From Microbacterium sulfonylureivorans (lineage in GTDB: Bacteria; Actinomycetota; Actinomycetes; Actinomycetales; Microbacteriaceae): a stretch of DNA of 64,000 bases. Below, one piece after another: positions 42,865-64,000 of this stretch (position 1 is its first letter; the number at the start of each line of letters is the position of its first letter). A program made the position numbers and the translations under genes. The stretch covers positions 1,922,001 through 1,986,000 of the forward strand of contig NZ_RJAD01000001.1 of assembly GCF_003999995.1 (NCBI RefSeq), read 5' to 3'. The notes below the pieces were generated by a model, which saw nothing but the letters and a program-made list of their open reading frames with translations, did no database searches and was not told where the DNA came from.

Positions 42865-42966
42865 CGTGCGCGGACGGATGCTCCGCACGGCCCTGCACCT
42901 TCGCTGCGCGCCGCGCGGAGGCATCCCTCCGCCCGGCTTACCGTGGAGCAGGAGGTGGTGGGGGCC

Positions 42967-43584: not shown

Positions 43585-43585
43585 C

Positions 43586-44179: not shown

Positions 44180-44315
44180 GGCATCCACCCTAGGCTCGGC
44201 GGCCGACGCCGGGAGGAGACCGCGCCGACTCGCCCCGGCATGCCTCCGCCGTGGACGGCGGGCAGCGGGCTACTCTCGCTGTGCGGGGACGTGCCCCGCG
44301 TGAGGAGTGCCCGCG

Positions 44316-45746: not shown

Positions 45747-45764
45747 CGGATGCCGCGGCATCCG
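45747..45764. terminator. GGATGCCGCGGCATCC palindrome immediately after a stop codon
   Basis: A perfect 18-bp palindrome (CGGATGCCG/CGGCATCCG) beginning at the base after the stop of the 161-aa membrane protein. A hairpin with no loop is unfavourable, so it may act as a terminator only if a few central pairs open, or as a protein site. Confidence 0.4.
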
Positions 45765-45829
45765 CTCTTCTCAGCTCGTGAGCCGCGGAATCCCGGCGCT
45801 CGCGGCCTTCCGGTACTACCGTTGACAGC

Positions 45830-46486: not shown

Positions 46487-46548
46487 CGACGCGAACGGGC
46501 GGGCTCGAGAGCATCAGGGCACGCACAGGCTCACGAGGGTGGTTTTGT

Positions 46549-46554
46549 TAGCAT
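46549..46554 (+). promoter_or_regulatory. Possible -10 element of the kinase/FHA/secretion operon
   Basis: TAGCAT at 46549-46554, preceded by a T-run, lies about 60 bp before the kinase start. No good -35 is seen at the right distance, so this is tentative. Confidence 0.3.
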
Positions 46555-46616
46555 GGCGAGGTTTGCTGCGCTGTGGCACGCCGGCACTTTCGGCGGCTTG
46601 ATCCGGAGGAGGTGAC

Positions 46617-47753
46617 GTGGCCACGAGGCTTCCGTCCGCGCCCCCGATCCTGCCCGGGCTCGCGTACATCCGACCGCTCGGATCGGGCGGCTTCGCCGAC
46701 GTCTTCCTCTACGAGCAGGACATGCCGCGGCGCAAGGTCGCCGTGAAGGTCATGCCCAGCGACGTCCGTGACCCCGACCTGCGTCGCATGTTCAACGCCG
46801 AGGCCGATGTGCTGGCGCACCTGTCGGCGCATCCGTCGATCGTCACGGTCTACCAGGCGGGAATCTCGGCCGACGGCCGACCGTACATCGTGATGGAGTT
46901 CTGCCCGGGCTCGCTCGCCCAGCGCTACCGGATCGAGCGCATCCCGGTCGACGAGGTCCTCGCGATCGGCGTCCGCATGGCCGGCGCCCTCGAGTCCGCG
47001 CACCGCGCCGGTCTGGTGCATCGCGACGTGAAGCCGAGCAACATCCTCATCACGACGTTCGGCACACCTGTGCTGGCCGACTTCGGCATCTCGTCGTCGC
47101 TGCTGCAGAAGAGCGCGGACGAGGTGCTGGCGATGTCGATCCCGTGGAGCGCACCCGAGGTCGTGGCGGAGCAGACCGCCGGGTCGATCGCGAGCGAGGT
47201 GTGGAGCCTGGGCGCGACGGTCTATTCGCTGCTCGCCGGGCACAGCCCGTTCGAGCGCCGCGAGCGAGGGCAGAACACGAAGGAACTGCTCCGGCGGCGC
47301 ATCGCCCGCGCGACGTACACCGAGATCCCCCGTGCCGACGTGCCCGCCTCTCTGCAGGCCGTGCTCGCCGCATCGATGAGCCGTGACCCCGGACGCCGGC
47401 AGGCATCGGCCCGGGAGTTCGCGGACGCGCTGCGTGCGGTGCAGGCCGAGCTCGGGCTCTCGCCGACGCCGCTCGAGATCCCCGACGAGGAGTGGTCTCC
47501 GGCATCCGCGCCCGTGGACTTCTCGGACTCGGCGCTGCGCGGTCCCACGCGCTCGCACCTCGAGCGCGACTCGACGCGCAAGCATCGCGCGTCGACGGGC
47601 GTGTCCGGTCTCGCCCGCGACGAGGAGACGGAGTTCTCGTCGCCGTCGCGCGCGCGCCGCCCCGTGCTGCCGTGGGTCGTGGGCGCCGCGGTCGGCGTGG
47701 TCGTGGCAGCGGGTGCGCTCTTCGCCGCGCTGTTCGCGACGGGAGTGCTGTGA
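46617..47753 (+). CDS. Membrane serine/threonine protein kinase (Pkn2/PknB-like)
   Basis: A 378-aa receptor-type kinase. The Gly-rich loop is LGSGGFADVF, the ATP lysine is Lys44, the catalytic loop is HRDVKPSN with Asp137, and DFG has Asp155. The C-terminal part has a juxtamembrane region with a DEETEFSSPSRARRP stretch and one membrane segment (about 354-376) ending almost at the C-terminus, so there is no extracellular sensor domain. The GTG start has GGAGGAGG upstream. It heads an operon with three FHA proteins, which would read its phospho-threonines. The next gene overlaps the stop. Confidence 0.94.
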   Translation: MATRLPSAPPILPGLAYIRPLGSGGFADVFLYEQDMPRRKVAVKVMPSDVRDPDLRRMFNAEADVLAHLSAHPSIVTVYQAGISADGRPYIVMEFCPGSLAQRYRIERIPVDEVLAIGVRMAGALESAHRAGLVHRDVKPSNILITTFGTPVLADFGISSSLLQKSADEVLAMSIPWSAPEVVAEQTAGSIASEVWSLGATVYSLLAGHSPFERRERGQNTKELLRRRIARATYTEIPRADVPASLQAVLAASMSRDPGRRQASAREFADALRAVQAELGLSPTPLEIPDEEWSPASAPVDFSDSALRGPTRSHLERDSTRKHRASTGVSGLARDEETEFSSPSRARRPVLPWVVGAAVGVVVAAGALFAALFATGVL

Positions 47754-50700
47754 TGCGCCGGAGGACCGTCGCCGGCCTCGTCGCGGCGGGGGCCGTCGTC
47801 GCGGTCGTCGTCGGCGCGAGCATCGTCTGGCCGGGCCTCGACGCGCAGGAGACGCCGGAGGTCGACACCGCGGTGTGGGCGCTGCAGACCGGCGAAGGAC
47901 GCCGCTACGCGCGCGTGAACACCTCCGTCGGAGAGCTCGACACCGTCCGGGGCATCAGCAACCCCGACAAGGTCGTGCAGACCGGCGACGCCGCCTACAT
48001 CTTCAGCGACAGCCTGACGAAGGTCACGCGCATCGACGAGGCGCTCCCGACCGACCTCGACGAGGAGGCGCTGCGCGCATCGGCGTCGACGCCGTCGGGA
48101 ACGACCGACGTCGTCACCGCGGGCGACTTCGTCGCGTACCGGACCGACGCGGGCTCCCTGTTCGCGGGTCAGCTCTCATCGGGCGACGCGGCCCAGCTCG
48201 ACCCGTTCCCCTCCGACGACGAGGACGCCCCGCAGTACACCGCCGACGCGATCGCCGTCGACGACCGCGGCATCCTGTTCGCGTACTCGCGTGAGGACGC
48301 CTCCGTGATGCGCTACGACATCCGCTCCGGAGACGTGAAGGGCCGCGACCCGCTCGACGCCGAGGGACTCGCGGCGCCGGCGATCACCGCGGCCGGCGAT
48401 CTGTGGGCGGTGGTCGACACCGAGGACGGCGACGTGTGGCTGCCGGGATCGGATGCCGCGACCCAGGCGGCCACGACGGGCCCCGTCGTCGTGAGCGAGC
48501 CGGATGCCGCAGGGACGGACGTCTACCTCGCGGACGAGACGACGCTCGTGCGGGTGCCGGTCGACGGCTCCGCCTTCGAGACCGAGGCCGGCGGGCCGAC
48601 CGATGTGCTGGGCACCGCTGCGCGCCCCATCGTCCAGGACGGGGTGGTGTACGCGGCGTGGCTCGGCCAGGGCGAGAGCGGCGGCACGCTGTGGCGCTCC
48701 GACGGCGATCAGGTCGCCCTCGACTACGGCGTCGAGTCGATCGCGGACGAGCGGCGCCCCGTGTTCGTCGCGAGCGACGAGGCCGTGATCCTCAACGACA
48801 CTCGGTCGGGGTGGGCGTGGACGGTCCCGGACGGCGAGCTGATCCCGTCGAGCCAGGACTGGACGCTCGACGACAGGACCGATCCCGCCGCCGTGCCCAG
48901 TGAGGAGCAGCTCACGGTCGTCATCGATCCGAAGCCCCCCATCGCCGAGCCGGACGCCTTCGGCGTGCGCGCGGGCAGCCTCACGACGCTGCCGGTCCTG
49001 ATGAACGACCACGACCCGAACGAGGATGTGCTGAGCATCGATCCCGCTTCGGTGGCCGGGCTCGATCCGGGCTTCGGCTCCGTGTCGATCACCGACGACG
49101 GCCAGCGCTTCGCCGTCCGCACGGCGCCGGGGGCCTCCGGGTCGGCGACGTTCTCGTACGCGGTCACCGACGGCACCTCCGACGGAGGCCTGCTGTCGAA
49201 GACGACGACCGTGACGCTCACGGTGGCCGGGGCATCCGTCGACTCCGCCCCCGAGTGGTGCGGAGTCGAACGCTGCCTCGTCGAGTGGCCCGAGCCCGAG
49301 GTCGCGCGCGGCGGGACACTGACCGTGCCCGTCCTTCCCGGGTGGGTGGACCCGGAGGGCGACCCGCTGCTGCTCCTGTCGGTCGAGAACAAGAGCACGG
49401 TCGGCACCGTCGCCGCGACTCCGGCGGGCGACGTCGTCTACCAGCACAGCGATGACGGCGAGGGCGGCGAGCAGTTGATCGAGCTCGCGGTCACGATCGC
49501 CGACACGGAGGGGAAGACGACGCAGAAGTCGCTGCTCGTGAGGGTGTCGCCCGAGCCGCAGCTCCAGGCGCAGTCCTTCGCCGTCCTCGACACCGTCGAC
49601 GCGGCCCTGACGGTCGACGTCGCGCCGCACGTGACCGGAACTGCGGGGATGCTGACGCTCGACTCGGTGCGCGTGCTCGACGACGCGAAGGCGACGGCGA
49701 CCGTCGTCGACGGCACGACGGAGTTCGACTTCTCGGCGCGAGAGCCCGGGACGTTCCGTGTCGACTTCACCGTCACCGACGGCACGACCGATGTGACGGG
49801 CACCGCCCGCATCACCCTGCTCCCGGCCGACGCGGCGGCCGAGCTGGCGACGTCGCCGGTCGTCGCGTTCGTCCACCCGCAGCAGGACGCCACCCTCGAC
49901 GTGTTCGCCGCGGTCTCCAACCCGACGCGGCGCGTGCTGCTGCTGAGCGATGTCGTGGCGACGGCCGACTCCGGCGCGACGCTCTCGGTCGACGCGGTCG
50001 GGCAGAACGACCTTCGGGTGTCGGGCACCACCGAGACCGGCGGCGCCGGTCGCCTCGGCACGGTGTCGTACGTCGTCAGCGACGGCACCGAGGACGAGGG
50101 CTCGCAGGTGCAGGGCGAGGCCACCGTCTATCTGCTTCCGCTCGCGCCCGAGCTCGCCCCGATCGCGGTCGACGACTCGGTCGTCGTGCGCGCCGGGGCC
50201 CAGATCGACATCCCCGTCCTGGAGAACGACATCGCGCCGGCGGGCGGCCGACCGACCCTCAATCCGGCCTCCGTCGTGTCGTCGAGCGACGATGCGCTGG
50301 CGTTCGGGGCGGGGGACCTGCTGCGGTACCTCGCGCCGACGGAGCCCGGCGAGTACACCATCGACTACTCGGTGTTCACGACCGGGGCGCCTGCCCTCGC
50401 CGACACCGCGCGGGTGCGGGTGCGGGTGCTCGCGGACGACCTCAACCGCGCCCCCGTGCCCGACACCCTCGAAGGCCGCGTGCTCAGCGGCCAGTCCGCG
50501 CTGATCGAGTTCGACGGCTTCGGCATGGATCCGGACGGCGACGTCGTGACGCTCGACCGGATCGTCGAGCAGCCCGACCGCGGCGCCGCGACGATCTCGG
50601 CGGACGGGGCATCCATCCTCTATTCGAGCGTGCCGGGTGACAGCGGGCAGGTGTCGTTCCGCTATCGCGTCGTCGATGCGTTCGGCGACGCCGGCGAGGC

Positions 50701-53700
50701 CTCCGTGCGGATCGGCGTGCTCGACAGCGAGGCGAACCCGAGTCCGGTGACGTTCACGGACTACGTGCAGGTGCAGGCGGGCGAGGGCAACACCATCCGC
50801 GTGAGCCCGCTGGCCAACGACGTCGATCCGACGCTGGGCTCGCTCGCGATCACCGACGTGCGGCCCGACCTCCCGGCCACGCTCATGGACGGCGACGACA
50901 ACCCCGAGTTCGCCCGCCTCGACGATCGGATCCTCCGCTCGGACGACGCCACGGTGGTCATCGAGGCGGGGTCCGAGCCGACCACGATGTCGTTCCTGTA
51001 CGACATCGAATCGAGCTCGGGCAACACCGGCCGGGGCCTCATCGTCGTGAAGGTGGTCCGCGAGAGCGTTCCCGACTACCCCGTCGTCGCCGACACGATG
51101 CTGACGGCGGAGACCCGCGAGGACTTCCCCGACGGCGTCGATGTGCTCTCCGACAAGGCCACCTGGTCGGGAGGGGACGTCTCCGACCTCGACGTGTCGC
51201 TGTGGGGCGACCCTGACGGCGTCTCGGTCGACGGCTGGGAGATCGAGGGCGATCTGCCCGCGCGGACCCGACTCATCCCGTTCGCCGTCACCGGTGAGGG
51301 GGCGTCGGGAGAGGTGACGACCTACGCGTTCCTCCGCGTTCCCGGCGACGACGACCTCGCCCTCACGATCCGTGCCGGCGTGGCACCGCCGGAGGTGACG
51401 GAGCTCGAGTCGGTGACCTTCGACATGGCGGACCTCGTCGCCAAGCCCCGGGGGAGCAGCATCGAGGTCGGGACGGATGTGCGCGTCTCGGGAGCCCGTG
51501 ACGAAGCGAGGTGCGTCGTCGAGTCGGGCACGGTGGTGCGCTACGACTCGGGCGCCGGCGCGCCGTGGGCGGACTCCTGCCAGGTGCCGGTGCGCCTCCA
51601 GAACCAGGATGACTGGACCTACCTCTCGGTCCCGATCATCGTGAACGCGCTCGACCCGCAGCCCGTGCTGCGGCCCGGATCGATGACCGTCGGGCCCGGG
51701 GAGACGGCCACGTTCGACCTGCGCGACATGACGACGTGGCAGCTCCGGCAGGACTGGGACGGCATCCAGTACGCCGTCGAGTACGCGGGATCGGCCTTCG
51801 ACGTCTCGCTCGACGGGTCGACCGTCACCGTCACCGGCGACGACCGCGCGACCCCCGGCTCGGAGGAGGCGGCGATCGTCTCGGTCACGAGTCACACGGC
51901 CGTCCCGTCGGTGCGCCTGATCCTCCGCGTCGGAGCGGCGCCCTCGACCCTGCCGCAGGGCGGCTCCGCGACGCAGCAGTGCTCGCAGGCGGCCGGCACA
52001 TCCTGCTCGATCTCGGTCATCGGCGCCGGCGGCGAGGTGAATCCGCTGCCGCGGACGCCGCTCGAGGTCGTCTCCGTGCGACCGGCGGGCGCGTGTTCGG
52101 GCGTGAGCTTCGAGGTCGAGTCGTCCACCTCCGTCCTCGCCTCGTGGACGCAGGACGCCCCGGGCGCGACCTGCACGGCGACGTTCTCCGTTCGCGACGC
52201 ACAGGGCAGGTCGACCAACGCGGAGCGCGACGGCCGCGTGCTGCTCGACCTGCTCGGCTATCCGAAGACGCCCGCGAGCGTGGCCCAGACGGCGTACGAC
52301 GACGGCACCGTCACGCTCCGCGTCGACCCGGGCGAGGCGCGCCTGGCGTATCCGGCGCTGACCGGCTTCGTCATCCGCTCGAACGGCGCCGAGGTGGCGG
52401 AGTGCGCGGCCGACGGGGTGTGCCCGGCGATCGCAGCGCCCAACGGCGAGGAGCGCACGTACGAGGCCACCGCCGTCAACGACGTCGGGGAGTCCCCGTC
52501 GAGCGTCCGGACGCTGGCGTGGGCGTACGACCCGCCGCCCTCCCCGTCGCGCGTGGAGGTGAGCCCCGTCGTGACCGCCGGCGAGGGGGGCGTCGTCTCG
52601 CTGGCCATCGAGGGCATCGATCCCGCCGAGACGGGCCGGATCGAGATCGCGAGCCAGACCGGCGAGACGGTGAGCATTCCGGTCTCCCGCAGGCAGACGC
52701 GACTGGATGTATCGGACTACCGGGTCGGCACGAACTCCGCGACGCAGATCACCGTGACCCCGTACTCGCGGTTCGAGATCCCGCCCGGGCTCGCGGGATC
52801 GACGTCGGGCGCTGCGGTGACCGTGTCGGGGAACGGCGTCGGCGCCCCCCAGAACGTCACGCTGTCGCTCTCGTCCCGCTCGACCGGCGACGGCCGATCG
52901 ACGGTCTCGGCCGTCGCCACCGCATCCCCGAACGGCACCGGATCCGAGCTGCGCTACGACATCGTCCCCGAGAACGAACGCGGGAGCTGCTCCCCCGGGG
53001 CCGGCGCTTCCAGCGAGTCCTTCCCCGACCTCGAGGACGGGCGCGAGTACCGCTTCTTCGTGTGCGTGGAGTCCTGGTACGGGGATCGATCGTTCGGTCG
53101 AGGCACCGCCGAGGGCAGCGTGCGGGCCGAGCAGAGCCGCGAGTCGCCGACAGGGTGGACGTTCGCGGTGGATCCGGCCCCTCGCGTCGTAGGACAGCGG
53201 GCCCGGTGGCACATCACCGACACGCCGACCTCGCCGGAGCAGCCGCCGCGCAACAACGACGTCGTGTTCGACGGCTGGGGGCCCGGGACGAGCATCTTCG
53301 ATCGGGACCCGGCCATCGACGTGCGCTACGTCCACCGCCTGTGGGGCACGAGCACGCCCAGCGCTCGCGTCGCGCCGGCCGCCGGCAGCGCCCCCTATCA
53401 GGTGCAGGCGAGCTGGACGCTGACCTCGTGCGTCGGGGGCTCCACGCTCGCGCTCGGGTCATCCTCGAGCAACGGAGACGCCAACGTCGTCTTCGCGAAC
53501 GACGGTCTCGTCTATCGCGATGAGGACGGCGCGGTGCTGCCGCACACCGCCGGCACGTTCGACGTGCCCCTCGGCGCCGTCAGCGTCGAGGGCATCGGCG
53601 TGACGGTCGGCTGGGCGTCGACGGGGTGGAACCTCAGCCCTGCGACATCGTCGTTCGGCGGCGAGTGCGATCCCGGCGCGGACCCGCCGCCCACCCCGTA

Positions 53701-53701
53701 G
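47753..53701 (+). CDS. Giant envelope protein with Ig-like/cadherin-like and Fn3-like domains
   Basis: A 1982-aa protein with one N-terminal membrane segment (residues ~7-29) and no LPxTG-type end. Residues ~45-390 are beta-rich and look like a propeller. Then come repeated Ig-like units with the xVxxLxND(x)DP signature: LPVLMNDHDPNEDVLSI, IPVLENDIAPAGG, VSPLANDVDPTLGSLAI. The last third includes Fn3-like units (PPSPSRVEVSP) and several Cys. It is anchored in the membrane with the bulk outside. ATG 47753 shares a base with the kinase stop. It is probably an adhesin-like or structural partner of the secretion genes downstream; no substrate is evident. Confidence 0.85.
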   Translation: MRRRTVAGLVAAGAVVAVVVGASIVWPGLDAQETPEVDTAVWALQTGEGRRYARVNTSVGELDTVRGISNPDKVVQTGDAAYIFSDSLTKVTRIDEALPTDLDEEALRASASTPSGTTDVVTAGDFVAYRTDAGSLFAGQLSSGDAAQLDPFPSDDEDAPQYTADAIAVDDRGILFAYSREDASVMRYDIRSGDVKGRDPLDAEGLAAPAITAAGDLWAVVDTEDGDVWLPGSDAATQAATTGPVVVSEPDAAGTDVYLADETTLVRVPVDGSAFETEAGGPTDVLGTAARPIVQDGVVYAAWLGQGESGGTLWRSDGDQVALDYGVESIADERRPVFVASDEAVILNDTRSGWAWTVPDGELIPSSQDWTLDDRTDPAAVPSEEQLTVVIDPKPPIAEPDAFGVRAGSLTTLPVLMNDHDPNEDVLSIDPASVAGLDPGFGSVSITDDGQRFAVRTAPGASGSATFSYAVTDGTSDGGLLSKTTTVTLTVAGASVDSAPEWCGVERCLVEWPEPEVARGGTLTVPVLPGWVDPEGDPLLLLSVENKSTVGTVAATPAGDVVYQHSDDGEGGEQLIELAVTIADTEGKTTQKSLLVRVSPEPQLQAQSFAVLDTVDAALTVDVAPHVTGTAGMLTLDSVRVLDDAKATATVVDGTTEFDFSAREPGTFRVDFTVTDGTTDVTGTARITLLPADAAAELATSPVVAFVHPQQDATLDVFAAVSNPTRRVLLLSDVVATADSGATLSVDAVGQNDLRVSGTTETGGAGRLGTVSYVVSDGTEDEGSQVQGEATVYLLPLAPELAPIAVDDSVVVRAGAQIDIPVLENDIAPAGGRPTLNPASVVSSSDDALAFGAGDLLRYLAPTEPGEYTIDYSVFTTGAPALADTARVRVRVLADDLNRAPVPDTLEGRVLSGQSALIEFDGFGMDPDGDVVTLDRIVEQPDRGAATISADGASILYSSVPGDSGQVSFRYRVVDAFGDAGEASVRIGVLDSEANPSPVTFTDYVQVQAGEGNTIRVSPLANDVDPTLGSLAITDVRPDLPATLMDGDDNPEFARLDDRILRSDDATVVIEAGSEPTTMSFLYDIESSSGNTGRGLIVVKVVRESVPDYPVVADTMLTAETREDFPDGVDVLSDKATWSGGDVSDLDVSLWGDPDGVSVDGWEIEGDLPARTRLIPFAVTGEGASGEVTTYAFLRVPGDDDLALTIRAGVAPPEVTELESVTFDMADLVAKPRGSSIEVGTDVRVSGARDEARCVVESGTVVRYDSGAGAPWADSCQVPVRLQNQDDWTYLSVPIIVNALDPQPVLRPGSMTVGPGETATFDLRDMTTWQLRQDWDGIQYAVEYAGSAFDVSLDGSTVTVTGDDRATPGSEEAAIVSVTSHTAVPSVRLILRVGAAPSTLPQGGSATQQCSQAAGTSCSISVIGAGGEVNPLPRTPLEVVSVRPAGACSGVSFEVESSTSVLASWTQDAPGATCTATFSVRDAQGRSTNAERDGRVLLDLLGYPKTPASVAQTAYDDGTVTLRVDPGEARLAYPALTGFVIRSNGAEVAECAADGVCPAIAAPNGEERTYEATAVNDVGESPSSVRTLAWAYDPPPSPSRVEVSPVVTAGEGGVVSLAIEGIDPAETGRIEIASQTGETVSIPVSRRQTRLDVSDYRVGTNSATQITVTPYSRFEIPPGLAGSTSGAAVTVSGNGVGAPQNVTLSLSSRSTGDGRSTVSAVATASPNGTGSELRYDIVPENERGSCSPGAGASSESFPDLEDGREYRFFVCVESWYGDRSFGRGTAEGSVRAEQSRESPTGWTFAVDPAPRVVGQRARWHITDTPTSPEQPPRNNDVVFDGWGPGTSIFDRDPAIDVRYVHRLWGTSTPSARVAPAAGSAPYQVQASWTLTSCVGGSTLALGSSSSNGDANVVFANDGLVYRDEDGAVLPHTAGTFDVPLGAVSVEGIGVTVGWASTGWNLSPATSSFGGECDPGADPPPTP

Positions 53702-53745
53702 CAGCAGCATCCGACTCTTCCCCAGCCCCCGACAGAGGACAGCAC

Positions 53746-54711
53746 ATGACGATCACCCAGGAACAGGCCACCTGGTTCGAGCAGACGTTCGCTCAGCTCG
53801 CGGACAACGTGGAGCGCGCGGTTCTCGGCAAGCGGCACGTGGTCGAGCTCGTCCTCACCGCGATGCTCAGCGACGGCCATGTGCTGCTCGAGGATGTGCC
53901 GGGCACGGGCAAGACCTCGCTCGCGCGGGCGATGGGCCAGACCGTGCAGGGCACCAACACGCGCATCCAGTTCACGCCCGACCTCCTCCCCGGCGACATC
54001 ACCGGCATCAGCGTGTACGACCAGAAGGAGGGCGTCTTCGAGTTCCACGCCGGCCCGATCTTCGCGAACATCGTGCTCGCCGACGAGATCAACCGCGCAA
54101 GCCCGAAGACGCAGTCCGCTCTTCTGGAGGTCATGGAGGAGGGGCGCGTCACGATCGACGGCGTGACGAGGCAGGTGGGCGTGCCGTTCCTCGTGCTCGC
54201 CACCCAGAACCCCATCGAGCAGGCGGGAACGTACCGACTGCCCGAGGCCCAGCTCGACCGATTCATGATGCGCGCGTCGCTCGGCTACCCCGACCACGCA
54301 GCCACCGTGCGCATCCTCGACGGCGCAGCAGTGGCGACCGCCGACCTCCCGCCGATCATCACGCCCCAGGCGCTCGTGGGCATGGCAGACCTCGCTGCGC
54401 AGGTGTACGTCGACGCCCTCGTGCTCGACTACATCGCCCGGCTCGTCGACAGCACGCGCTCGGCCGACGAGGTGCGGCTCGGCGTCAGCATCCGCGGAGC
54501 GCTCGCGCTCACGCGGGCCTCCCGCACGCGCGCCGTGTCGCAGGGTCGCACCTACGCGACCCCCGACGACGTGAAGGCGCTCGCCGTGCCGGTGCTGTCG
54601 CACCGCCTGATCCTGCATCCCGAGGCCGAGTTCGACGGCGTCACCCAGGAGGCCGTCATCGGCCAGGTCCTGCTCGACGTGGCGCCCCCCAGCCGTCGCG
54701 AGGCTGTATGA
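53746..54711 (+). CDS. MoxR-family AAA+ ATPase
   Basis: A 321-aa AAA+ ATPase with Walker A VPGTGKTSLA (53-57 core), the MoxR segment RIQFTPDLLPGDITGISVYD, Walker B IVLADEINRASPKTQSALLEVMEEG, and sensor 1 LATQNPIEQAGTYRLPEAQLDRF. MoxR ATPases remodel or mature partner proteins and usually work with DUF58/VWA proteins, the next gene here. GAGG lies 7 nt before the ATG at 53746. The next gene overlaps it (ATGA). Confidence 0.95.
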   Translation: MTITQEQATWFEQTFAQLADNVERAVLGKRHVVELVLTAMLSDGHVLLEDVPGTGKTSLARAMGQTVQGTNTRIQFTPDLLPGDITGISVYDQKEGVFEFHAGPIFANIVLADEINRASPKTQSALLEVMEEGRVTIDGVTRQVGVPFLVLATQNPIEQAGTYRLPEAQLDRFMMRASLGYPDHAATVRILDGAAVATADLPPIITPQALVGMADLAAQVYVDALVLDYIARLVDSTRSADEVRLGVSIRGALALTRASRTRAVSQGRTYATPDDVKALAVPVLSHRLILHPEAEFDGVTQEAVIGQVLLDVAPPSRREAV

Positions 54712-56081: not shown

Positions 56082-58591
56082 GTCGGATGAGGGATGCCGC
56101 GACCCGCGCCGAGCGCACGCCGCGGTTCGTGCCGCGCATCGTTGCGGGCTCCGTCTTCGCCGCGGCGGTCGTGGGGATCGCCGCCGTGGCTGCCTGGCCG
56201 ATCTATCGCTCGTGGCATCTCCTCCTCCTCGTGGGGGTGTCGGTCCTCGTGGCCGCGGCGATCGCGGCCGTCGCGTGGCAGCGTCGCTGGGGCGGGTGGC
56301 TGGTCTCGGGTGCGCTGGCGATCGCGTTCCTGGTGCTCGGGGTGCCCCTGGCCGTGCCGTCTCGGCTGGGCGCGCCTGCCGAGTTCCTCCGCGGGCTGGG
56401 TGAGCTGACCTCCGGCGCCGTGCTGGCCTGGAAGGACCTCGTCACCGTCGAGCTGCCCATCGGGGCGTACCGCAATCTCCTGGTGCCCGCGCTCCTCGTC
56501 TTCCTCGTCGGCACGTGCGCGCTCCTGCTGCTCTCCTGGCGTGAGGATCGCGTGGCGTACGGTGCCGTGCCCGTCGCTCTGGGGATGGTCTCGTTCGGGC
56601 TCTTCTTCGGCCGCACCACGGTCAGCGCGCCGCTGCAGCTCGGCCCGGTCATGCTCCATGCGCCGGTCGAGACCCTGCTCGGGGTCGCCAGTCTCCTCGC
56701 CTGCCTGCTGTGGCTGGCATGGCGGACTCACGATCAGCGCCTCCGTGCGCTGCAGCGGGCCGCGGCATCCAGCGGCGTCCGCATCTCGCGACGCCCCTCG
56801 CGTGCGGACCGCCGCCGCACGGTGCTGGGCGCCGCGATGGTCGCGGGCGCGCTGGTCGTCGCCGTCGGCGTCGTGCCGTTCGCCGCCCGCGGCGCGGAGC
56901 GCGAGGTGCTCCGCACGGCCGTCGGCCCCGAGATCGACCTGTCGGCGGCGGTGAGCCCCCTGGCCGAGTACCGGTCGCTGTTCACAGACGACCGTGCCGA
57001 GGACGTGCTGTTCACGGTGGAGTCCGACGCCGCGCTTCCCGCGCGGGTGCGTCTGGCGACTCTGGACGCCTACGACGGCGAGGTGTTCCGCAGCGGCGGC
57101 GAGGGCGCCATCGACGACGGGCGCTTCGTGCGCGTGCCGTCGACACTCGATCCGGGCGCGGGAGCGCCGGTCGAGGCCGATGTCACGATCGACGGCCTCG
57201 ACGGGATCTGGATGCCGACCGCGGGCAGGCTGTCCGGTGTCGAGTTCTCGGGCGACCGCGCCGCATCGCTCTCGGACCGGTTCTACTACAACGCCGCCGC
57301 AGCGGCGGGGGTGCAGACGGCCGGCGGCGGGCTCGAGCCGGGAGACCGATTCCTCCTCCACGCGGTGGAGCCGGAGGCGGCCGACCTCGCCGAGATCGAG
57401 GCGCCCGGCGGTGCGGGAGGCGCCGTCGCCGCGCCGGAGAGCCTCCGGGCGTGGGTCGAGGAGCACGTGTCGGGCACCGGCGGTGCAGCATTGGCCGGTC
57501 TGGTCTCGCTGCTGCGCGAACGCGGATACCTCAGCCACGGTCTGACCGTCGGCGAGGAGCAGCCGGTGTGGGCGGCGGCGCTTCCCGACTACACGTTCCA
57601 GCCGAGCGCGTCGGGTCATTCGCTCGCTCGCATCGACGCCATGTTCGCGCGACTCCTCGAGCGCGAAGTCGACTCCCGCGCGAAGGAGTCCGGCAACTTC
57701 GTCGCTGCCGTCGGAGACGACGAGCAGTTCGCCGTCGCGGTCGCGCTCATCGCCCGCGAGCTGGGCTTCCCTGCCCGCGTGGTCCTCGGGGCGCGTCTGG
57801 GCGAGGTCGAGCCGGGACTGGCATCGTGCGACGAGGGTGTGTGCCGCGCGCAGGATCTCTCCGCATGGACCGAGGTCCAGTCCGCCGACGGCGAATGGGT
57901 GGCGGTCGACGTGACGCCGCAGTTCGCGCAGTCGCCGAGCCGGGACGTCACCGAGCAGCGCGATCCGGAGGTCGTCACCGAGGTCCGCCCCGACTCCGTC
58001 GAGGAGGTCATCCCACCCGACCCGCTGCAGGAGGACTCCGCGACGAGCGAGTCCACGGAGGAGGCTGCCGGGCCCGAGCTCGCGTGGCTCTGGGCGACGC
58101 TGCGCACCACCGGCGTCGCGCTCCTGATCCTGGGACTCGCGCTCGGGCCGTTCCTCGTGGTCATCGGCGCCAAGGCGTCCCGCCGTCGGAGCCGTCGGCG
58201 CAATGGCGCGCCCGCCGGGCGCATCGCCGGCGGGTGGGAGGAATACGTGGATGCCGCGGTGGATGCGGGCCGGGAGGCCCCGCGCACCCACACCCGGCGC
58301 GAGCTGGCCGCCGGGTTCGGGTCCGAGGCCGGGCTGCGACTCGCCGACACCGCCGATCGCGCCGTATTCTCTTCCGGAGACGAGACGGAGGCCGACGCCG
58401 AGGAGTACTGGCGCTCGGTCGACGAGCAGCGACGCCTCCTCACGAAGGAGCGAGGGTTCTGGCGAACGCTTGCCGTGACCGTATCGTTGAGATCGTTCGT
58501 CAGACACCTGGCACCCGCGACGGGTGCCCGCACGCGTTTCGCCGAGAGGGGGAGGCGCCGGGCCGTCCAGCCCGTGCGTTCGATGCCATGA
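56078..58591 (+). CDS. TgpA-like membrane protein with a transglutaminase fold lacking catalytic Cys and His
   Basis: An 837-aa protein. Six or seven membrane segments occupy residues ~20-290, one more lies near 675-700, and a transglutaminase-like domain spans about 470-620. In this fold the expected GDCEQF and HAW motifs read GDDEQF (Asp548 in place of Cys) and SAW (Ser595 in place of His); the Asp of VDVTP (Asp611) is kept. So it is likely non-enzymatic and may bind peptides or organise the MoxR-DUF58 module. The C-terminal cytoplasmic part is charged. ATGA overlap with DUF58. A much longer open frame starting in DUF58 is not the gene. Confidence 0.9.
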   Translation: MSRMRDAATRAERTPRFVPRIVAGSVFAAAVVGIAAVAAWPIYRSWHLLLLVGVSVLVAAAIAAVAWQRRWGGWLVSGALAIAFLVLGVPLAVPSRLGAPAEFLRGLGELTSGAVLAWKDLVTVELPIGAYRNLLVPALLVFLVGTCALLLLSWREDRVAYGAVPVALGMVSFGLFFGRTTVSAPLQLGPVMLHAPVETLLGVASLLACLLWLAWRTHDQRLRALQRAAASSGVRISRRPSRADRRRTVLGAAMVAGALVVAVGVVPFAARGAEREVLRTAVGPEIDLSAAVSPLAEYRSLFTDDRAEDVLFTVESDAALPARVRLATLDAYDGEVFRSGGEGAIDDGRFVRVPSTLDPGAGAPVEADVTIDGLDGIWMPTAGRLSGVEFSGDRAASLSDRFYYNAAAAAGVQTAGGGLEPGDRFLLHAVEPEAADLAEIEAPGGAGGAVAAPESLRAWVEEHVSGTGGAALAGLVSLLRERGYLSHGLTVGEEQPVWAAALPDYTFQPSASGHSLARIDAMFARLLEREVDSRAKESGNFVAAVGDDEQFAVAVALIARELGFPARVVLGARLGEVEPGLASCDEGVCRAQDLSAWTEVQSADGEWVAVDVTPQFAQSPSRDVTEQRDPEVVTEVRPDSVEEVIPPDPLQEDSATSESTEEAAGPELAWLWATLRTTGVALLILGLALGPFLVVIGAKASRRRSRRRNGAPAGRIAGGWEEYVDAAVDAGREAPRTHTRRELAAGFGSEAGLRLADTADRAVFSSGDETEADAEEYWRSVDEQRRLLTKERGFWRTLAVTVSLRSFVRHLAPATGARTRFAERGRRRAVQPVRSMP

Positions 58592-60042
58592 ATGCCGATG
58601 CATCCACGACCATCGCCGGGATCCTGATCTCGCTGATCGCCGTCGCCGCTCTCTACGTGTGGACGGCGATCGCGCTGTCCGCCGTCTTCCGCAAGTCCGG
58701 CGAGGAGGCGTGGAAGGCCTGGGTGCCGATCCTCAACACGATCGTGCTGCTGCAGCTGGGCGGCCTGTCGCCGTGGCTGGTCCTGCTGGCGCTGGTTCCC
58801 GTTCTCGGCCAGCTCGCGCTCTGGGTCGTCATCGTGCTCGCCTGCTATCGGATCAACGTGGCCTTCGGGTTCGGCGTGGGCATGACGGTCCTCGCCGCGC
58901 TGCTGCTCCCGGCGTGGGCGACCGTGCTCGGATTCGGCTCGGCGCGATGGGTCGGTGCCGAGCCCGCCGGCGGAGTCCGTCGTTCGGCCGACAGCGCGTC
59001 TGCGCGACCGGCCGGCTACGCGTCCGACGACGCCGGCCCGCCGCCGCTGCCCCCGGCATCGGCCGTGCCGCTTTCCGGGCCCGATGCGAATGCGGGATGG
59101 GCGCCCGCCGCGTCGACACCGCCTCGCCCGGCTCCTCCCGTGCCGCCGATGCCGTCGTTCCCCGCACCCGTGGGCGCGGCTGTCTCCGACGACCCGGAGG
59201 AGCCCATCTCGTTCGTGCCCGTCCACTCCGCGTCGGCCCCCTCGGCCCCTCCGGTTCCGCAGGCGCCCGCCGTGCCCGACACCGAGCCGGCGCCCGCGCT
59301 TCCCGCGCCGGCGTCGTCTGCACGGGCGAACCAGGGCTGGGGCGGATTCGACCTCGGCGCGGTCGGCGAGCTGACCAGCGAGGTCACCGCCGCCGTGAGC
59401 GGCGCGCCGCACCCGATCGCCGCGGTGCCGGCGGGCACCGGACCCGAGGCCGATGCCGTCCCGCCCACCCCTGCCGTCACCCGCGTCCCGGCCGCCCGGG
59501 CGGTGCCCGATGTCGAGCCGTGGGCGCCCGCGCGCTCGCCGCTGCCGGAGGAGGACGCGTTCCCCGAGGCCTCCGGCGAGGTCTCGGCGGTCGCCGGAGC
59601 GCCGGATGCCGGCATCCCGCGCTCCGCTCGTGCCTCGGTGTCCGCCCAGCATGTGCTCCCGGAGATCCCCGACGACGTCGAGGAGACGGTGATCGCCAAC
59701 CGTCGCCGGTCGAAGTGGTCGCTCATGCTCCCGTCCGGATCGAGCGTCGAGCTCACGGCGGACGTCGTCCTGGTGGGCCGCCGCCCGGCCCCGAGCACGG
59801 CGTACCCGAGCGCCCAGCTCGTCGAGGTGGACGACGGCACCGTCTCGAAGACCCACCTCCGCCTCGAGCGGCACGGCGAGGAGTGGTCGGCGACCGATCT
59901 GCACTCGACGAACGGCACGATCCTCGTCGCGTCGGACGGCGCAGAGCGCGAGATCGTGCCGGGCACGGCGCACCGGGCTCCGGGCCGCCTCCTCCTCGGC
60001 GACGCCGAACTCCGCCTCGGTCCCGACGACGGCGGCCGATGA
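58588..60042 (+). CDS. Membrane FHA-domain protein
   Basis: A 484-aa protein. Residues 1-110 hold three hydrophobic segments around a KSGEEAWKAWVPILN motif, as in DUF5684-type membrane modules. The middle is a long Pro/Ala-rich linker. Residues ~395-480 are an FHA domain with VGRRPAPSTAYP, VSKTHLRLE and HSTNGT, the residues that bind phospho-threonine. Just before the FHA domain is DDVEETVIANRRR, which resembles the phosphorylated N-terminal Thr motif of GarA-like proteins. ATGA overlap with the gene before and after. A natural reader of the kinase upstream. Confidence 0.92.
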   Translation: MNADASTTIAGILISLIAVAALYVWTAIALSAVFRKSGEEAWKAWVPILNTIVLLQLGGLSPWLVLLALVPVLGQLALWVVIVLACYRINVAFGFGVGMTVLAALLLPAWATVLGFGSARWVGAEPAGGVRRSADSASARPAGYASDDAGPPPLPPASAVPLSGPDANAGWAPAASTPPRPAPPVPPMPSFPAPVGAAVSDDPEEPISFVPVHSASAPSAPPVPQAPAVPDTEPAPALPAPASSARANQGWGGFDLGAVGELTSEVTAAVSGAPHPIAAVPAGTGPEADAVPPTPAVTRVPAARAVPDVEPWAPARSPLPEEDAFPEASGEVSAVAGAPDAGIPRSARASVSAQHVLPEIPDDVEETVIANRRRSKWSLMLPSGSSVELTADVVLVGRRPAPSTAYPSAQLVEVDDGTVSKTHLRLERHGEEWSATDLHSTNGTILVASDGAEREIVPGTAHRAPGRLLLGDAELRLGPDDGGR

Positions 60043-60836
60043 CGGCGGCCGGCACCCCCGGCCCCGGGAAGGACGGCGAGGCCGAGGTCGAGGAGGCCAC
60101 GGTCCTGTCGACCCGGCGGCGCGGTGAGGTCGAGGTCGAGGAGGCCACGGTCCTGTCGACACGTCGGCGCGGCGCCGGCGCGGCCGAGGCCTCGGGTGAG
60201 CCGGAGCGCGATGCGGACGAGCCGGACGAGCCGACGGCGGTGTCCGTCCGTCGGCGCACCGTCGTCGAGGACGACCTCGACGACACGATCCTGTCGTCCC
60301 GCGTGCGCACGGGGATGGAGCCGGAGGTGGACCGGACCGCGCCTTCGGCTCGTGCGCGGCGGGCCACGGATCCGGATGGGGCGGCCGGCGCGGACCTCGC
60401 GCGCCCTGCGGCATCCCTTCCGTCAGACGGGGACACCGTGTTCGCGCGCCGTCCCGCCCTGCCCGGTGCCGACACCCTTCCTGAGCTCGAAGACACCCTG
60501 ATGCGTCCGGTCGCGCCGTCGACCCGCGGCGGTGCGCGACCGCAGCCGGCATCCGCCGCCTCGGCGACGCCGGCGCCCGCGCGCGACGCCCGCGTGCCGG
60601 ACGCCGCGGCGCTGCGGACGCCGGTCCCGCCGCGGGCGGCGCCGCCCGTGACGGCGGTCCGGGCTCCCGCTCCGCAGCGGCCTCCGGCGCCGGATGACCC
60701 GGCGGCTCTCCCCGACCATGAGAGTGTGGAGCGTGCCGTCCATGTCCGCGAGAGACGCCGCGTGCTGCTCGTGGTGGTGTGCGCCGCGGTCGTCGCTCTC
60801 GCGTCGGCCGGCGCGCTCGCGCTGCTGCTGGCCTGA
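60039..60836 (+). CDS. Tail-anchored protein with repeated Thr motifs (possible kinase substrate)
   Basis: A 265-aa protein with a cytoplasmic, low-complexity N-terminal part and one C-terminal membrane segment (about 243-264). The N-terminus has two perfect EVEEATVLSTRRRG units (Thr21 and Thr37) and looser forms: DEPTAVSVRRR, DLDDTILSSRVR, GDTVFARRP, LEDTLMRP. An acidic residue before and hydrophobic after Thr, then Arg, fits sites of actinobacterial Ser/Thr kinases and FHA binding. The next and previous genes are FHA proteins. I know no named family. ATGA overlap with the gene before. Confidence 0.8.
   Translation: MTAAGTPGPGKDGEAEVEEATVLSTRRRGEVEVEEATVLSTRRRGAGAAEASGEPERDADEPDEPTAVSVRRRTVVEDDLDDTILSSRVRTGMEPEVDRTAPSARARRATDPDGAAGADLARPAASLPSDGDTVFARRPALPGADTLPELEDTLMRPVAPSTRGGARPQPASAASATPAPARDARVPDAAALRTPVPPRAAPPVTAVRAPAPQRPPAPDDPAALPDHESVERAVHVRERRRVLLVVVCAAVVALASAGALALLLA
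60075..60170 (+). repeat. Two in-frame 48-bp units encoding the Thr motif
   Basis: Units at 60075-60122 and 60123-60170 encode a 16-aa repeat, GEVEVEEATVLSTRRR (first copy GEAEV). They differ at only a few bases, showing recent duplication of the putative phosphosite. Confidence 0.85.
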
Positions 60837-60862
60837 CGGCGTCCGGTGACCTGAGGATGACG

Positions 60863-62233
60863 ATGACCGACCCTGCTCCCTCCGCCCTGCTCGCCGGTGA
60901 CGACGCGGCGCCCTGGAACGACGCGGATCCCGCCTCGGCGGCCCGGCTCGGGATCGTCTCCGCCGGCGCGGGATACCGTTCGCTCGCCTTCGCGATCGAC
61001 GCCACGATCTGGCTCGTGCTCGCGGCGCCCCTCATGCTCGGCGCCGCGATGCTCGTGCTCGGCGACACGACGATCGTTCCCGTGGTCCTCATCGGGCTCG
61101 GCTGGCTCCTCACGACCCTGTTCGCAGTGTTCCAGCTGATCGCGCACGGGCGGCGCGGGGTGACCGTCGGCAAGGCCGCTCTGCGGCTGCGCTCGATCGC
61201 CGCCGCCGACCTGGGTCGCCCCGGCTTCTGGCGGGTCGTGCTGCGCGCCCTCGTGCTCTCGGCGAGCTTCCTCGTGCTCGTCGTCGTCGGGCCGGCTGTG
61301 CTGTTCGCCTCGGCGTTGTGGGATCCGCAGGCTCGGGGACGCAGCATCCTGGATCGGGTGGGCGGATGCTGGGTCATCGACGCCCGCGCCGGACTCGACC
61401 CCTTCGACGCCAAGGCGCTCCGCCATGCGCGTCGCGCGATGCGCGGCCGTCCGGGCGCCGACGAGGACCTCCCCTCGATGGCCAGCGGCGCCGCCGTCGA
61501 GAGCGCGCTGCGCATCCCCGACGCGCGATCGCGCGCCGGGGTCGTCGGACCGGGCGGAACCGGGGCGCAGTGGTCGCTCGCGGCGTCCGCGGACGATGGC
61601 GGGCTGATCGACGGGGTCCCCGGAGCGGATGCCGCGTCTCCTGCGTCGACGGGCCTGCCCGGGCTCACCCCCGACACGGGCCGCGCGGAGCCCGGCCCGG
61701 CGTCTCCGACCCCCTTCGCGCCGCCCGCGCCCGCCGCGCCGTCCACCGACGCTGCGCGGCCTCACGCACCCGCGCAGCGGCCTCACGCGCCCGCGCCCGC
61801 CTCGGCGCCCCTGGCCGCACCGGCCCCCGTGCCGGCTCCTGCCGAGGTCGTCCAGGCGGCCGGCGCCGTTCCGCCGGCCGGGCTCCGCCGGGCCCAGGCG
61901 ATGGTCCGCTTCGACGACGGCTCGGTCGTCCGCGTGCCCGTGCTCGGGCTCATCGGCCGTGACCCCGGCCCCGTCGCCGGGGAGAGCGTCGACGCGGTGG
62001 TCCGCCTCGACGACCCCGAGCGGCTGATGTCGAAGACGCACGCCGCGTTCGGGCAGGACGCGGAGGGCGTGTGGGTCTCGGACCGAGGATCACGCAACGG
62101 CACGCAGCTTCTCTCGCCCGGTGGAGACGTCGTCGACGTCGCTGCCGGCGAGCGGATGCGCGTGCCCGTGGGGTGGACCGTGCAGGTCGGGGGCAGGACG
62201 TTCGAGCTTGTTCCGAGAGGTGCTGATTCGTGA
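60863..62233 (+). CDS. RDD-family membrane protein with C-terminal FHA domain
   Basis: A 456-aa protein. The RDD domain (residues ~30-175) begins AGYRSLAFAIDATIWLVL and has four hydrophobic segments with the GRRGVTVGKAALRLR motif. A long Ala/Pro-rich linker follows. Residues ~360-450 are an FHA domain: VLGLIGRDPGP, LMSKTHAAFG, RGSRNGTQL. RDD-FHA fusions are typical of type VII-like gene clusters in this group. ATG 60863 has GAGG upstream; ATG 60857 is possible. It overlaps the next gene (GTGA). Confidence 0.9.
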   Translation: MTDPAPSALLAGDDAAPWNDADPASAARLGIVSAGAGYRSLAFAIDATIWLVLAAPLMLGAAMLVLGDTTIVPVVLIGLGWLLTTLFAVFQLIAHGRRGVTVGKAALRLRSIAAADLGRPGFWRVVLRALVLSASFLVLVVVGPAVLFASALWDPQARGRSILDRVGGCWVIDARAGLDPFDAKALRHARRAMRGRPGADEDLPSMASGAAVESALRIPDARSRAGVVGPGGTGAQWSLAASADDGGLIDGVPGADAASPASTGLPGLTPDTGRAEPGPASPTPFAPPAPAAPSTDAARPHAPAQRPHAPAPASAPLAAPAPVPAPAEVVQAAGAVPPAGLRRAQAMVRFDDGSVVRVPVLGLIGRDPGPVAGESVDAVVRLDDPERLMSKTHAAFGQDAEGVWVSDRGSRNGTQLLSPGGDVVDVAAGERMRVPVGWTVQVGGRTFELVPRGADS

Positions 62234-64000
62234 AGCTGAAGCTGGGTCTGCGCCGCGGCGCCGGCTCGACCGTCGACGTGCTCGTCACCGCCGACTCGAC
62301 GGCGAGCGTGCAGGATGTCGCGCGCGCCCTTGCCGAAGGCGACGCGCTGGCCGCCGAGGGCGGGGTGAACGCGAGCGACGTCCCGACGCTGCTGGTCGCG
62401 TCGCCGGCGGGCCGGCCGGTGCAGCTCGACCCGTCCGCGTCGATCGCGGACGCGCCGATCGGATCGGGCTTCGACGCCTCCGTCGTCCCCGCCGTGCCGA
62501 GCGCCGGCGCCGGCGGGGCGGTCACCGCCGCGGTCATGCGCATCCACAGCGGCCCCGATGCCGGTCGCACCATCCCGCTCCCGGCGGGGACGACCGTGAT
62601 CGGCCGGGTCGCTCCGGCGCAGGTGCTCCTCGACGACCCGCTGGTCTCCAAGCGCCATGCCCGCGTCGAGGTCGACCAGGGCATCGAGCTGATCGACCTC
62701 AACTCCGCGAACGGCCTGATCGTCGACGGCGGCCTCGTGCAGCGCGTGCGCGTCGTCCTCGGCCAGAAGATCACGATCGGCGCGACCGAGGTGTCGTTCT
62801 CGGCGGTCCCGCGCGTCGGCGGCGACGCCTCCCTCGTGCTCGAGCGCGGCGGTGCGCTCATGTTCAACCGCTCGCCGCGCGTCGAGGACCGCTACGCGGG
62901 CCAGGAGTTCCGGCATCCGATCATCCCCAACGAGGCGGACCCGCGCATCTTCCCGTGGCCGATGATCATGGCCCCGGTACTCCTCGGTCTCGCGATGTTC
63001 GCCGTCACGCAGCGCCCGACGTCGCTGCTCATCGTCGCGATGGCGCCGCTCATGATGCTCGGCAACTTCATCGGGCAGCGCACCCAGCAGGGCAAGAAGC
63101 TGCAGCTCGAGATCGAGACGTTCGAGACGCAGCTCGAGGAGCTCGAGGACCAGCTCCAGGTCGAGGAGACGGTCGAGCGCGAGCGGCGGCGGGCTGAGGC
63201 CCCCGCCACCGCGACGGTCTACGAGAACGCGATGGCGCTCGGGCCGATGCTGTGGACGCGCAGGCCGGAGCACTGGAACTTCCTCGGACTCCGGCTGGGT
63301 GTCGGCTCGGGGCACAGCCGCAACACCGTGCAGGAGGCCAACGACCAGCGCGGCATCGCCCAGTACTCGCAGCAGGTGCGCCAGCTGCGCGACCGCTTCG
63401 CGCGCATCGACGACGTCCCGGTCATCGAGCTGCTCCCGTCGGCCGGCGCGATCGGCATCGCCGGGCCGCGCGAGCTCGCCGCGGACGTCGTGCGCGGGCT
63501 CGGCGTGCAGCTGTTCGGCCTGCACGCCCCCAACGAGGTCGTCACGGCCGCCATCGTCGATCCGGGCTGGACCGGCGACATGGAGTGGATGAAGTGGCTG
63601 CCGCACACCACGAGTCCGCGATCGCCGTTCGCCGAGATGGCGCTCGCCGACAGCCAGTCGGCCGGCACGGCCCTGCTGAACGGCCTCGAGGAGGCCATCC
63701 TGGAGCGGCTGTCCGGCTCGGCGACGCACCGCGGGCCGCTCGCGGCCAAGGACGTCTCGATGTCGCTGGGCAAGTTCGTCGGCGAGCAGACCGGCGGCGG
63801 CTCGGCCGCGGGCGACGTGTCGCTCGTCCTGTTCGTGACCCACGACGCCCCGATCGACCGTCCCCGACTCACCCAGGTGATCGAGCGCGGACCGGATGCC
63901 GGCGTGTACACGATCTTCGTGGCGCCCACGGTGGAGTCCCTCCCGGCGTCGTGCCGCACCTTCATCGACGTCACGAACGGGCTCGACGACGCGATGGTCG
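62230..64000 (+). CDS. FHA/FtsK-SpoIIIE type VII secretion ATPase (EssC/EccC-like), 3' partial
   Basis: The first 590 residues of a longer protein cut by the window end. Residues ~1-75 are a small ubiquitin-like/FHA-like domain; ~95-190 are an FHA domain (VIGRVAPAQVLLDD, LVSKRHARVE, NSANG). Two membrane segments lie near 238-275. A coiled-coil linker (TFETQLEELEDQLQVEETVERERRR) follows, then the conserved pre-FtsK region with WTRRPEHWNFLGLRLGVG. This order, FHA then two membrane helices then FtsK, is that of EssC. The ATPase domains would come after 64000. GTG 62230 overlaps the stop of the RDD-FHA gene. Confidence 0.88.
   Translation, partial: MKLKLGLRRGAGSTVDVLVTADSTASVQDVARALAEGDALAAEGGVNASDVPTLLVASPAGRPVQLDPSASIADAPIGSGFDASVVPAVPSAGAGGAVTAAVMRIHSGPDAGRTIPLPAGTTVIGRVAPAQVLLDDPLVSKRHARVEVDQGIELIDLNSANGLIVDGGLVQRVRVVLGQKITIGATEVSFSAVPRVGGDASLVLERGGALMFNRSPRVEDRYAGQEFRHPIIPNEADPRIFPWPMIMAPVLLGLAMFAVTQRPTSLLIVAMAPLMMLGNFIGQRTQQGKKLQLEIETFETQLEELEDQLQVEETVERERRRAEAPATATVYENAMALGPMLWTRRPEHWNFLGLRLGVGSGHSRNTVQEANDQRGIAQYSQQVRQLRDRFARIDDVPVIELLPSAGAIGIAGPRELAADVVRGLGVQLFGLHAPNEVVTAAIVDPGWTGDMEWMKWLPHTTSPRSPFAEMALADSQSAGTALLNGLEEAILERLSGSATHRGPLAAKDVSMSLGKFVGEQTGGGSAAGDVSLVLFVTHDAPIDRPRLTQVIERGPDAGVYTIFVAPTVESLPASCRTFIDVTNGLDDAMV

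Follow-up and report, generated by a model that had tools for sequence, protein, structure and literature searches.

Does a row of closely spaced genes for a Ser/Thr kinase, FHA proteins and an EssC-type ATPase encode one kinase-gated secretion system? The question arises at the end of a 64,000-nt stretch from Microbacterium sulfonylureivorans (genome G000, C1:1922001-1986000; the whole stretch is termed the window), which was analyzed together with the 16 kb downstream. The original prediction had described nine genes in one direction, g1 to g9 (Table 1), as a single system in which phosphothreonine signalling assembles or gates the secretion ATPase. Pfam searches confirmed the order and the domain labels, and the mostly overlapping genes were recovered as overlaps of 1 or 4 bp at six of the eight junctions. 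By gene order in related genomes, the region is made up of two conserved modules that abut, each occurring without the other: the S module, i.e., the set g1-g7 from the kinase to a Thr-motif protein (46617-60836), and a type VII secretion module that begins with g8. The explanation of the whole that we consider rather probable combines these abutting modules with S as the counterpart of the PFNA operon of Bifidobacterium, a phosphorylated scaffold as mechanism and a paralogous module, L, as the best partner of EssC.

Occurrence of the S module and of EssC

EssC homologs of at least 39 % identity were grouped as EssC-A, those of at least 50 % identity as A1. Forty-two of 120 genomes of the family and 41 of 149 genomes of the order contained EssC-A, counted by hand and leaving out a partial match in G413 (66 %). 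Gene-called neighbourhoods covered 40 EssC-A loci besides that of M. sulfonylureivorans, 10 other EssC loci and 20 TgpA loci; for presence, E-value limits of 1e-100 (EssC) and 1e-15 (marker of the L module) were applied. A TgpA score of 270 bits, at which no association with EssC was observed (36/68 versus 25/52, p = 0.71), was dropped as marker of S, as it mixed S with a further type, the M modules. At 370 bits, any EssC was present in 12 of the 22 family genomes with S and in 49 of the 98 without (p = 0.81), thus ten S genomes lacked EssC at 1e-100. An S set upstream of EssC was found in none of the 26 other A1 loci. Twelve of these had an RDD-FHA gene called directly upstream of EssC, two the L set (G516, G552), and G462b had a kinase in this position, with the S set absent upstream. 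Exceptional were G523, with FHA6- and PP2C-like open reading frames (ORFs) on the opposite strand, and G486, with a weak FHA6 match. In G371, a genome of the same genus, the row kinase-Ig-MoxR-DUF58-TgpA-FHA-g7 ends directly at rpsL-rpsG-fusA, and EssC lies about 200 kb away. The interval between rpoC and rpsL hosts either module, with S sets after rpoC in three loci (S_G544, S_G499, S_G508) and EssC loci after rpoC in four genomes (G268, G510, G442, G488); the contact of S and EssC in M. sulfonylureivorans therefore needs no functional reason, and adjacency in this genome was rejected as sole evidence. With the lack of association, the 26 loci and the distance in G371, a single system in which g1 and the adjoining genes control this EssC was not supported in the form proposed.

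The module that tracks with EssC, in presence and often in position, is L and not S. Its layout Ig-MoxR-DUF58-TgpA-RDD/FHA-PP2C-FHA-kinase-marker precedes EssC-A in other families and in part of the family studied here (G301, G362, G364, G008, G330, G462, G552). The marker protein (about 235 aa, FHA-like by eye) was present in 31 of the 42 EssC-A genomes of the family against 11 of the 78 others (p = 1e-10), in the order in 35 of 41 against 17 of 108 (p = 3e-15). Thirty-nine family genomes contained both the marker and any EssC, within 30 kb of each other (17 genomes), separated by more than 300 kb on the same contig (10 genomes) or on different contigs (12 genomes). In M. sulfonylureivorans the L module is complete; it lies at C1:1562528-1582527 and encodes PP2C, a kinase, an Ig/FN3 giant protein and two proteins that Pfam assigns to FHA. 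This module is 400 kb distant from EssC, and no EssC follows directly. The M module is a further paralog with the order kinase-Ig-MoxR-DUF58-TgpA-FHA-ATPase. Its ATPase of about 900-1000 aa was recognized in 10 of 14 fetched M-type regions and in G516, not in M_G438, M_G491, M_G439 and M_G467; the 881-aa ATPase of G442 matched the EssC model at 1e-67, below the cut-off. A WXG100 gene was not recognized beside the ATPase-containing M modules in the regions read. As L adjoins EssC and M has an EssC-like ATPase of its own, the module class and EssC-type ATPases associate more than once. The predicted tie between such a gene set and a secretion ATPase thus gained support in kind, and the synteny comparison suggested with it yielded an EssC-linked paralogous module in L, while S proved separable.

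One integrated kinase-gated type VII system, in which g1 phosphorylates g7 and g6 and the FHA domains of EssC and of the RDD-FHA protein g8 dock on g7, is the strongest alternative, yet we consider it unlikely. The gene spacing is tight, the gap between g7 and g8 amounts to 20 bp, and no terminator-like site was found on the plus strand from 45500 to 64000, which allows one transcript here; a sigma-70-like promoter was not found there either. G377 and G302, which belong to another family, likewise have an S-type set immediately ahead of EssC, and Gly-Arg, Ser-x-x-His and Asn-Gly are retained in all three FHA domains, those of g6, g8 and EssC. Furthermore, S was somewhat commoner where L is missing: among the EssC-A genomes of the family it occurred in 5 of 11 without L against 3 of 31 with L at a 367-bit cut (p = 0.02) and in 4 of 11 against 3 of 31 at 370 bits (p = 0.06), so that S may stand in for L and may serve EssC. 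Apart from the retained FHA residues, these points weigh against the explanation preferred here, and so do properties of the comparison itself: the co-occurrence tests ignore shared ancestry and used presence lists read by hand, the 370-bit cut that tells S from other TgpA paralogs was adopted after the 270-bit cut had mixed the types, and the L marker is without a Pfam match and in G377 stands in the S-type set, not in an L module. The S genomes without EssC, the A1 loci without S upstream and the full L module in M. sulfonylureivorans speak against integration, and we argue that the 20-bp junction is the boundary between two modules.

The Thr-repeat protein and the FHA domains

Orthologs of g7 were recognized in 17 of 18 S loci, none in S_G487. 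They are tail-anchored, with motifs of the form [DE]x(0-1)T[VIRL][VILM] N-terminal to the transmembrane segment (TM); Pfam searches gave no match for g7. The g7 of M. sulfonylureivorans (265 aa, TM at about 242-261) had four motif matches by regular expression, against a mean of 0.31 in shuffled sequences (largest shuffle 4). Seventy-eight matches, 1-11 each, were obtained in the 16 scored orthologs versus 4.1 from shuffles. The density was 19.1 per 1000 aa compared to 0.90 in 1417 other ORFs, a background that includes the g7 ortholog of S_G544 (235 aa, 10 motif matches), which stood outside the 16. Within a genome the repeats resemble each other, between genomes they diverge; the Thr persists amid changing neighbours, which suggests repeat turnover with the Thr conserved. 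A matching motif, EETVIANRRR, is located in g6 about 30 residues before the Gly-Arg of the FHA domain, and a motif in this position was found in 15 of the 17 g6 orthologs scored. Two points weaken the case for a phosphorylated scaffold: the regular expression was written after the g7 sequences had been seen, and among M-type FHA proteins only 6 of 12 have the motif before the FHA domain by the rule used, with at least one miss (M_G442) stemming from the anchor of the rule.

GarA and OdhI switch by self-binding. The proteins of the type described here are, in contrast, membrane proteins with multiple FHA partners, and a single scaffold protein can contain as many as 11 motif matches. In GarA the phosphosite is reported to lie in an extension N-terminal to the FHA domain (PMC5448819). 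Sites dependent on the mycobacterial kinase PknA are described with acidic residues before the Thr, Leu or Val at +3 and Lys or Arg at +4 (PMC7164672); this preference fits some g7 repeats (ATRIVRR), not others. The N-terminus of EssC consists of a predicted ubiquitin-like domain (residues 1-90, approximately) and an FHA domain (about 100-195), followed by the FtsK modules. Together with the RDD-FHA protein, the intact FHA domain of EssC makes phosphothreonine docking at EssC likely, and a phospho-gating would be plausible.

The FHA domains and Thr motifs might instead be structural only, with phosphate-free partner binding as in the type VII secretion system b (T7SSb) of Bacillota and with repeats that are charged linkers. 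This we regard as improbable. FHA domains of T7SSb EssC are indeed reported to be without a phosphothreonine site and to bind a pseudokinase domain (PMC11217815). In EssC-A, however, the phosphothreonine-binding residues were invariant in 18 of 18 aligned N-termini; the Thr of the repeats is the residue kept between genomes, and a kinase, together with PP2C in 15 of 18 S loci, travels with the FHA genes.

The PFNA operon and the TgpA-like protein

The PFNA operon consists of pkb2, fn3, aaa-atp, duf58, tgm, prpC, a hypothetical gene and fha; PP2C is described as optional, co-transcription is reported for B. longum GT15 only, and Pkb2 is reported to phosphorylate the MoxR ATPase of the operon (PMC8430577). 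A scan with three Bifidobacterium-type TgpA sequences identified 75 named loci, 63 with Bifidobacterium in the title. The Bifidobacterium loci in the comparison, among them B. gallicum (G327), B. scaligerum (G312), B. mellis (G370) and B. choladohabitans (G426), present the order kinase-giant-MoxR-DUF58-TgpA, followed in part by PP2C, hypothetical gene and FHA, which is the PFNA order. This order was seen in six named loci (B. gallicum, B. saguini, B. aesculapii, B. catenulatum, B. asteroides, B. indicum), in five of them near rpoC, like some S modules and EssC loci of the family. The genes g1-g5 correspond to the five core genes of PFNA in unchanged order, with FHA further on. A profile of 17 S-type giants proved homologous to one of 15 giants from L-type, M-type and Bifidobacterium loci, with a probability of 100 over 1858 columns. 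Differences concern the sixth and seventh genes, a DUF5684-FHA protein and the tail-anchored Thr-repeat protein, and the PP2C gene: the S copy of M. sulfonylureivorans has none and is followed by the type VII locus. The phosphatase that the original prediction had proposed to look for was absent from g1-g9 by Pfam, and none was found in the extended row. By gene order and homology, the S module is the counterpart of the Bifidobacterium PFNA operon in the family of M. sulfonylureivorans.

In transglutaminases the catalytic Cys resides in what we take to be a GxCxxFA motif. The site of g5 reads GDDEQFA; the residue before E549 is Asp, and the match to TgpA (6g49) begins at E549. Among 35 S, L, M and other loci the site was readable in 34, all of which have Asp, Gln, Glu, Gly or Ser in place of the Cys. 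Nor was it present in the 73 readable of the 75 named loci: Ser was read in 62, Ala in 6, Gly in 3 and Asp in 2 (57, 5, 0 and 1 by a first pattern, the rest by a looser one); three Bifidobacterium genomes are in both sets. Other transglutaminase-fold loci of M. sulfonylureivorans have the Cys in three of four cases, the fourth being unreadable by the patterns. By these readings, the 'transglutaminase' of the PFNA class is without the catalytic Cys wherever the site is readable, Bifidobacterium included, and with the Cys missing, the TgpA-like protein is proposed to be a binder rather than a cross-linker. For Bifidobacterium, TGM has been read as 'presumably a cysteine protease' (PMC8430577).

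A role of the PFNA-type set in host-immune interaction has been proposed for Bifidobacterium, where in vitro binding of TNF-alpha by FN3 and positive selection are reported and FN3 is read as a cytokine binder (PMC8430577). This reading of the set is highly improbable in view of same-order homologous sets across the family and the order, including an S-like set in Leucobacter edaphi, and of paralogs linked to EssC-type ATPases; in Bifidobacterium, host binding could have been acquired later. The mycobacterial moxR operon resembles PFNA in having MoxR next to DUF58. The review concerned compares it with PFNA and, in the passages on this operon, not with type VII secretion; a kinase, a giant Ig protein and type VII genes are not named for it there (PMC12067865). 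The main text of PMC8430577 contains no occurrence of the word 'secretion', and in the open-licence PMC literature no paper was found that joins PFNA or MoxR/DUF58/transglutaminase to type VII secretion.

Type VII genes, proposed mechanism and meaning

Table 1 Features of the locus, in window coordinates (positions above 64000 lie beyond the window end)
Gene	Product	Module	Position	Strand	Evidence
g1	membrane Ser/Thr kinase, 378 aa, C-terminal TM	S	46617..47753	+	Pkinase 5.2e-41
g2	giant surface protein, Big_9/Ig-like, 1982 aa	S	47753..53701	+	Big_9 8.8e-29, 4 stretches
g3	MoxR AAA+ ATPase, 321 aa	S	53746..54711	+	AAA_3 1.3e-61, AAA_lid_2 2.4e-23
g4	DUF58 protein	S	54708..56081	+	DUF58 9.2e-11
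g5	TgpA-like membrane protein, transglutaminase-type domain	S	56078..58591	+	Transglut_core 1.9e-10
g6	DUF5684-FHA protein	S	58588..60042	+	DUF5684 4.9e-15, FHA 1.5e-6
g7	tail-anchored protein, repeated acidic-Thr-hydrophobic-basic motifs	S	60039..60836	+	motif count and TM
g8	RDD-FHA membrane protein	type VII (first gene)	60857..62233	+	RDD 1.3e-10, FHA 5.7e-4
g9	EssC-type ATPase, 1494 aa		62230..64000, on to 66714	+	FtsK_SpoIIIE 6e-60, FHA 5e-11
	WXG100 protein		66804-67097		PF06013 1.8e-11, above cut-off
	weak WXG-like ORF		67176-67472		13.9 bits, under NCBIfam cut-off

The kinase sequence contains VAVK, HRDVKPSN and DFG motifs and a hydrophobic stretch at the C-terminus. A TgpA_N match of g5 (1e-5, 25.0 bits) is under the Pfam cut-off of 30, the FHA match of g8 (20.7 bits) is exactly at the cut-off, and g8 starts at 60857 or 60863. 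Kinase and Ig gene overlap by 1 bp; the overlaps of 4 bp are MoxR/DUF58, DUF58/TgpA, TgpA/FHA, FHA/Thr-motif and RDD-FHA/EssC. Besides the g7/g8 junction, a gap of 44 bp exists between the Ig gene and MoxR, which starts at ATG 53746 and thereby has the length of most orthologs; 53698 is GTA, no start codon. The upstream part of the window contains rpoC and a gene whose position and length indicate rpoB. In the interval from rpoC to the kinase operon, DUF3558 was matched weakly (21.3 bits, below the cut-off) at 43586-44188 on the minus strand, and four other ORFs tested at 42943-46486 gave no Pfam match.

Beyond the window end, both the FtsK modules and the WXG100 protein were found, on whose presence the original prediction had made its secretion reading depend. 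The weak WXG-like ORF is followed by a gene for a candidate substrate of 457 aa (g12), three more genes to 70897, and rpsL-rpsG-fusA-tuf. The type VII module spans 60857 to about 70897, comprising RDD-FHA protein, EssC, WXG100 and a candidate substrate cassette. A WXG-like gene, a large protein of the g12 type and small genes recur as a cassette in the adjoining stretch (L005:7176-8842) and in relatives, in G371 repeatedly. Residues 61-120 of g12 are best conserved, the last 100 or so least, and g12 looks like a variable substrate; such cassettes are possible substrate cassettes.

With T7SSa (ESX) and T7SSb (Ess) the locus shares an EccC/EssC-type ATPase and WXG100. EccB, EccD, EccE, MycP, EssA, EssB and EsaA were not recognized at the locus (Pfam for g8-g15, NCBIfam for g9-g15), in agreement with the predicted difference from the mycobacterial ESX layout. 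EssC stayed below the cut-offs of both the T7SSb EssC model (549 bits, cut-off 778) and EccCa (339 bits, cut-off 509). T7SSd of Actinomycetota is composed of TsdA, C, D, H and I and is reported without a ubiquitin-like component (Garrett et al. 2024, PMC11217815). Its features, a kinase, a giant envelope protein, a small one-TM protein, FHA-EssC and WXG100, are all present in M. sulfonylureivorans, but kinase and one-TM protein belong to the module separable from EssC, and EssC-A has the predicted ubiquitin-like N-terminal domain. B. mellis (G370) and B. choladohabitans (G426) have the T7SSd-like order WXG100-kinase-147 aa-1775 aa-EssC. The assignment of the EssC of M. sulfonylureivorans to T7SSd was rejected: in a midpoint-rooted tree of 31 rows EssC-A lies on the opposite side of a 100/100 branch from this pair, which is placed among clade B and was called T7SSd-like by gene order and genus. 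No profile match was obtained between g2-type giants and the 1774/1775-aa proteins of the pair (probability below 1, with only two near-identical sequences). At the end of the 147-aa TsdH-like protein are two repeats of the acidic-QT[ST]L type, DDEQQTSLIG and DDEAQTTLAERF; they resemble the motif class of g7. EssC-like ATPases and WXG100 are also described beside CoCoNuT restriction systems, a different setting (PMC11090510). Two genomes of more than 8 Mb in the order sample (G409, G395) encode three EssC homologs each, of 33-35 % identity and outside EssC-A.

From sequence, predicted fold and gene order we infer the following mechanism. The membrane kinase g1 would phosphorylate Thr residues in the g7 repeats and in the corresponding motif that g6 has ahead of its FHA domain. 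Docking of FHA domains on the phosphorylated repeats would make the tail-anchored g7 a polyvalent phospho-scaffold at the membrane, and g6 would switch between self-binding, like GarA and OdhI, and docking on g7. PP2C would reset the scaffold, in M. sulfonylureivorans maybe supplied in trans. MoxR and DUF58 may act as a chaperone pair that assembles or remodels the giant Ig protein and the TgpA-like protein, a putative pseudo-transglutaminase. As docking partner of EssC the unlinked L module is best supported, with S as a possible second. A wider reading is offered tentatively: PFNA-type modules may form the envelope half, under phosphothreonine control, of a widespread actinobacterial type VII class, in which kinase, PP2C, FHA proteins and Thr-repeat scaffold would time the MoxR-DUF58 assembly of giant and pseudo-transglutaminase around an EssC-type ATPase; the Bifidobacterium PFNA would be this half parted from its motor, and TsdH a small version of the scaffold.

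Compared to the original prediction, the class of S, L and M modules, its apparent match with PFNA, the altered TgpA site, the putative Thr-repeat scaffold and the predicted architecture of EssC are new. The EssC described here combines a predicted ubiquitin-like domain with FHA and belongs to a clade outside T7SSd. For the kinases of these systems a concrete candidate substrate and scaffold is provided in g7, possibly in TsdH. The findings link two literatures that our searches found unconnected, on PFNA as a species-specific immune-signalling operon and on the newer kinase/FHA variants of type VII secretion: the PFNA operon, thought to be special to gut bifidobacteria, is matched by the S module in the family of M. 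sulfonylureivorans.

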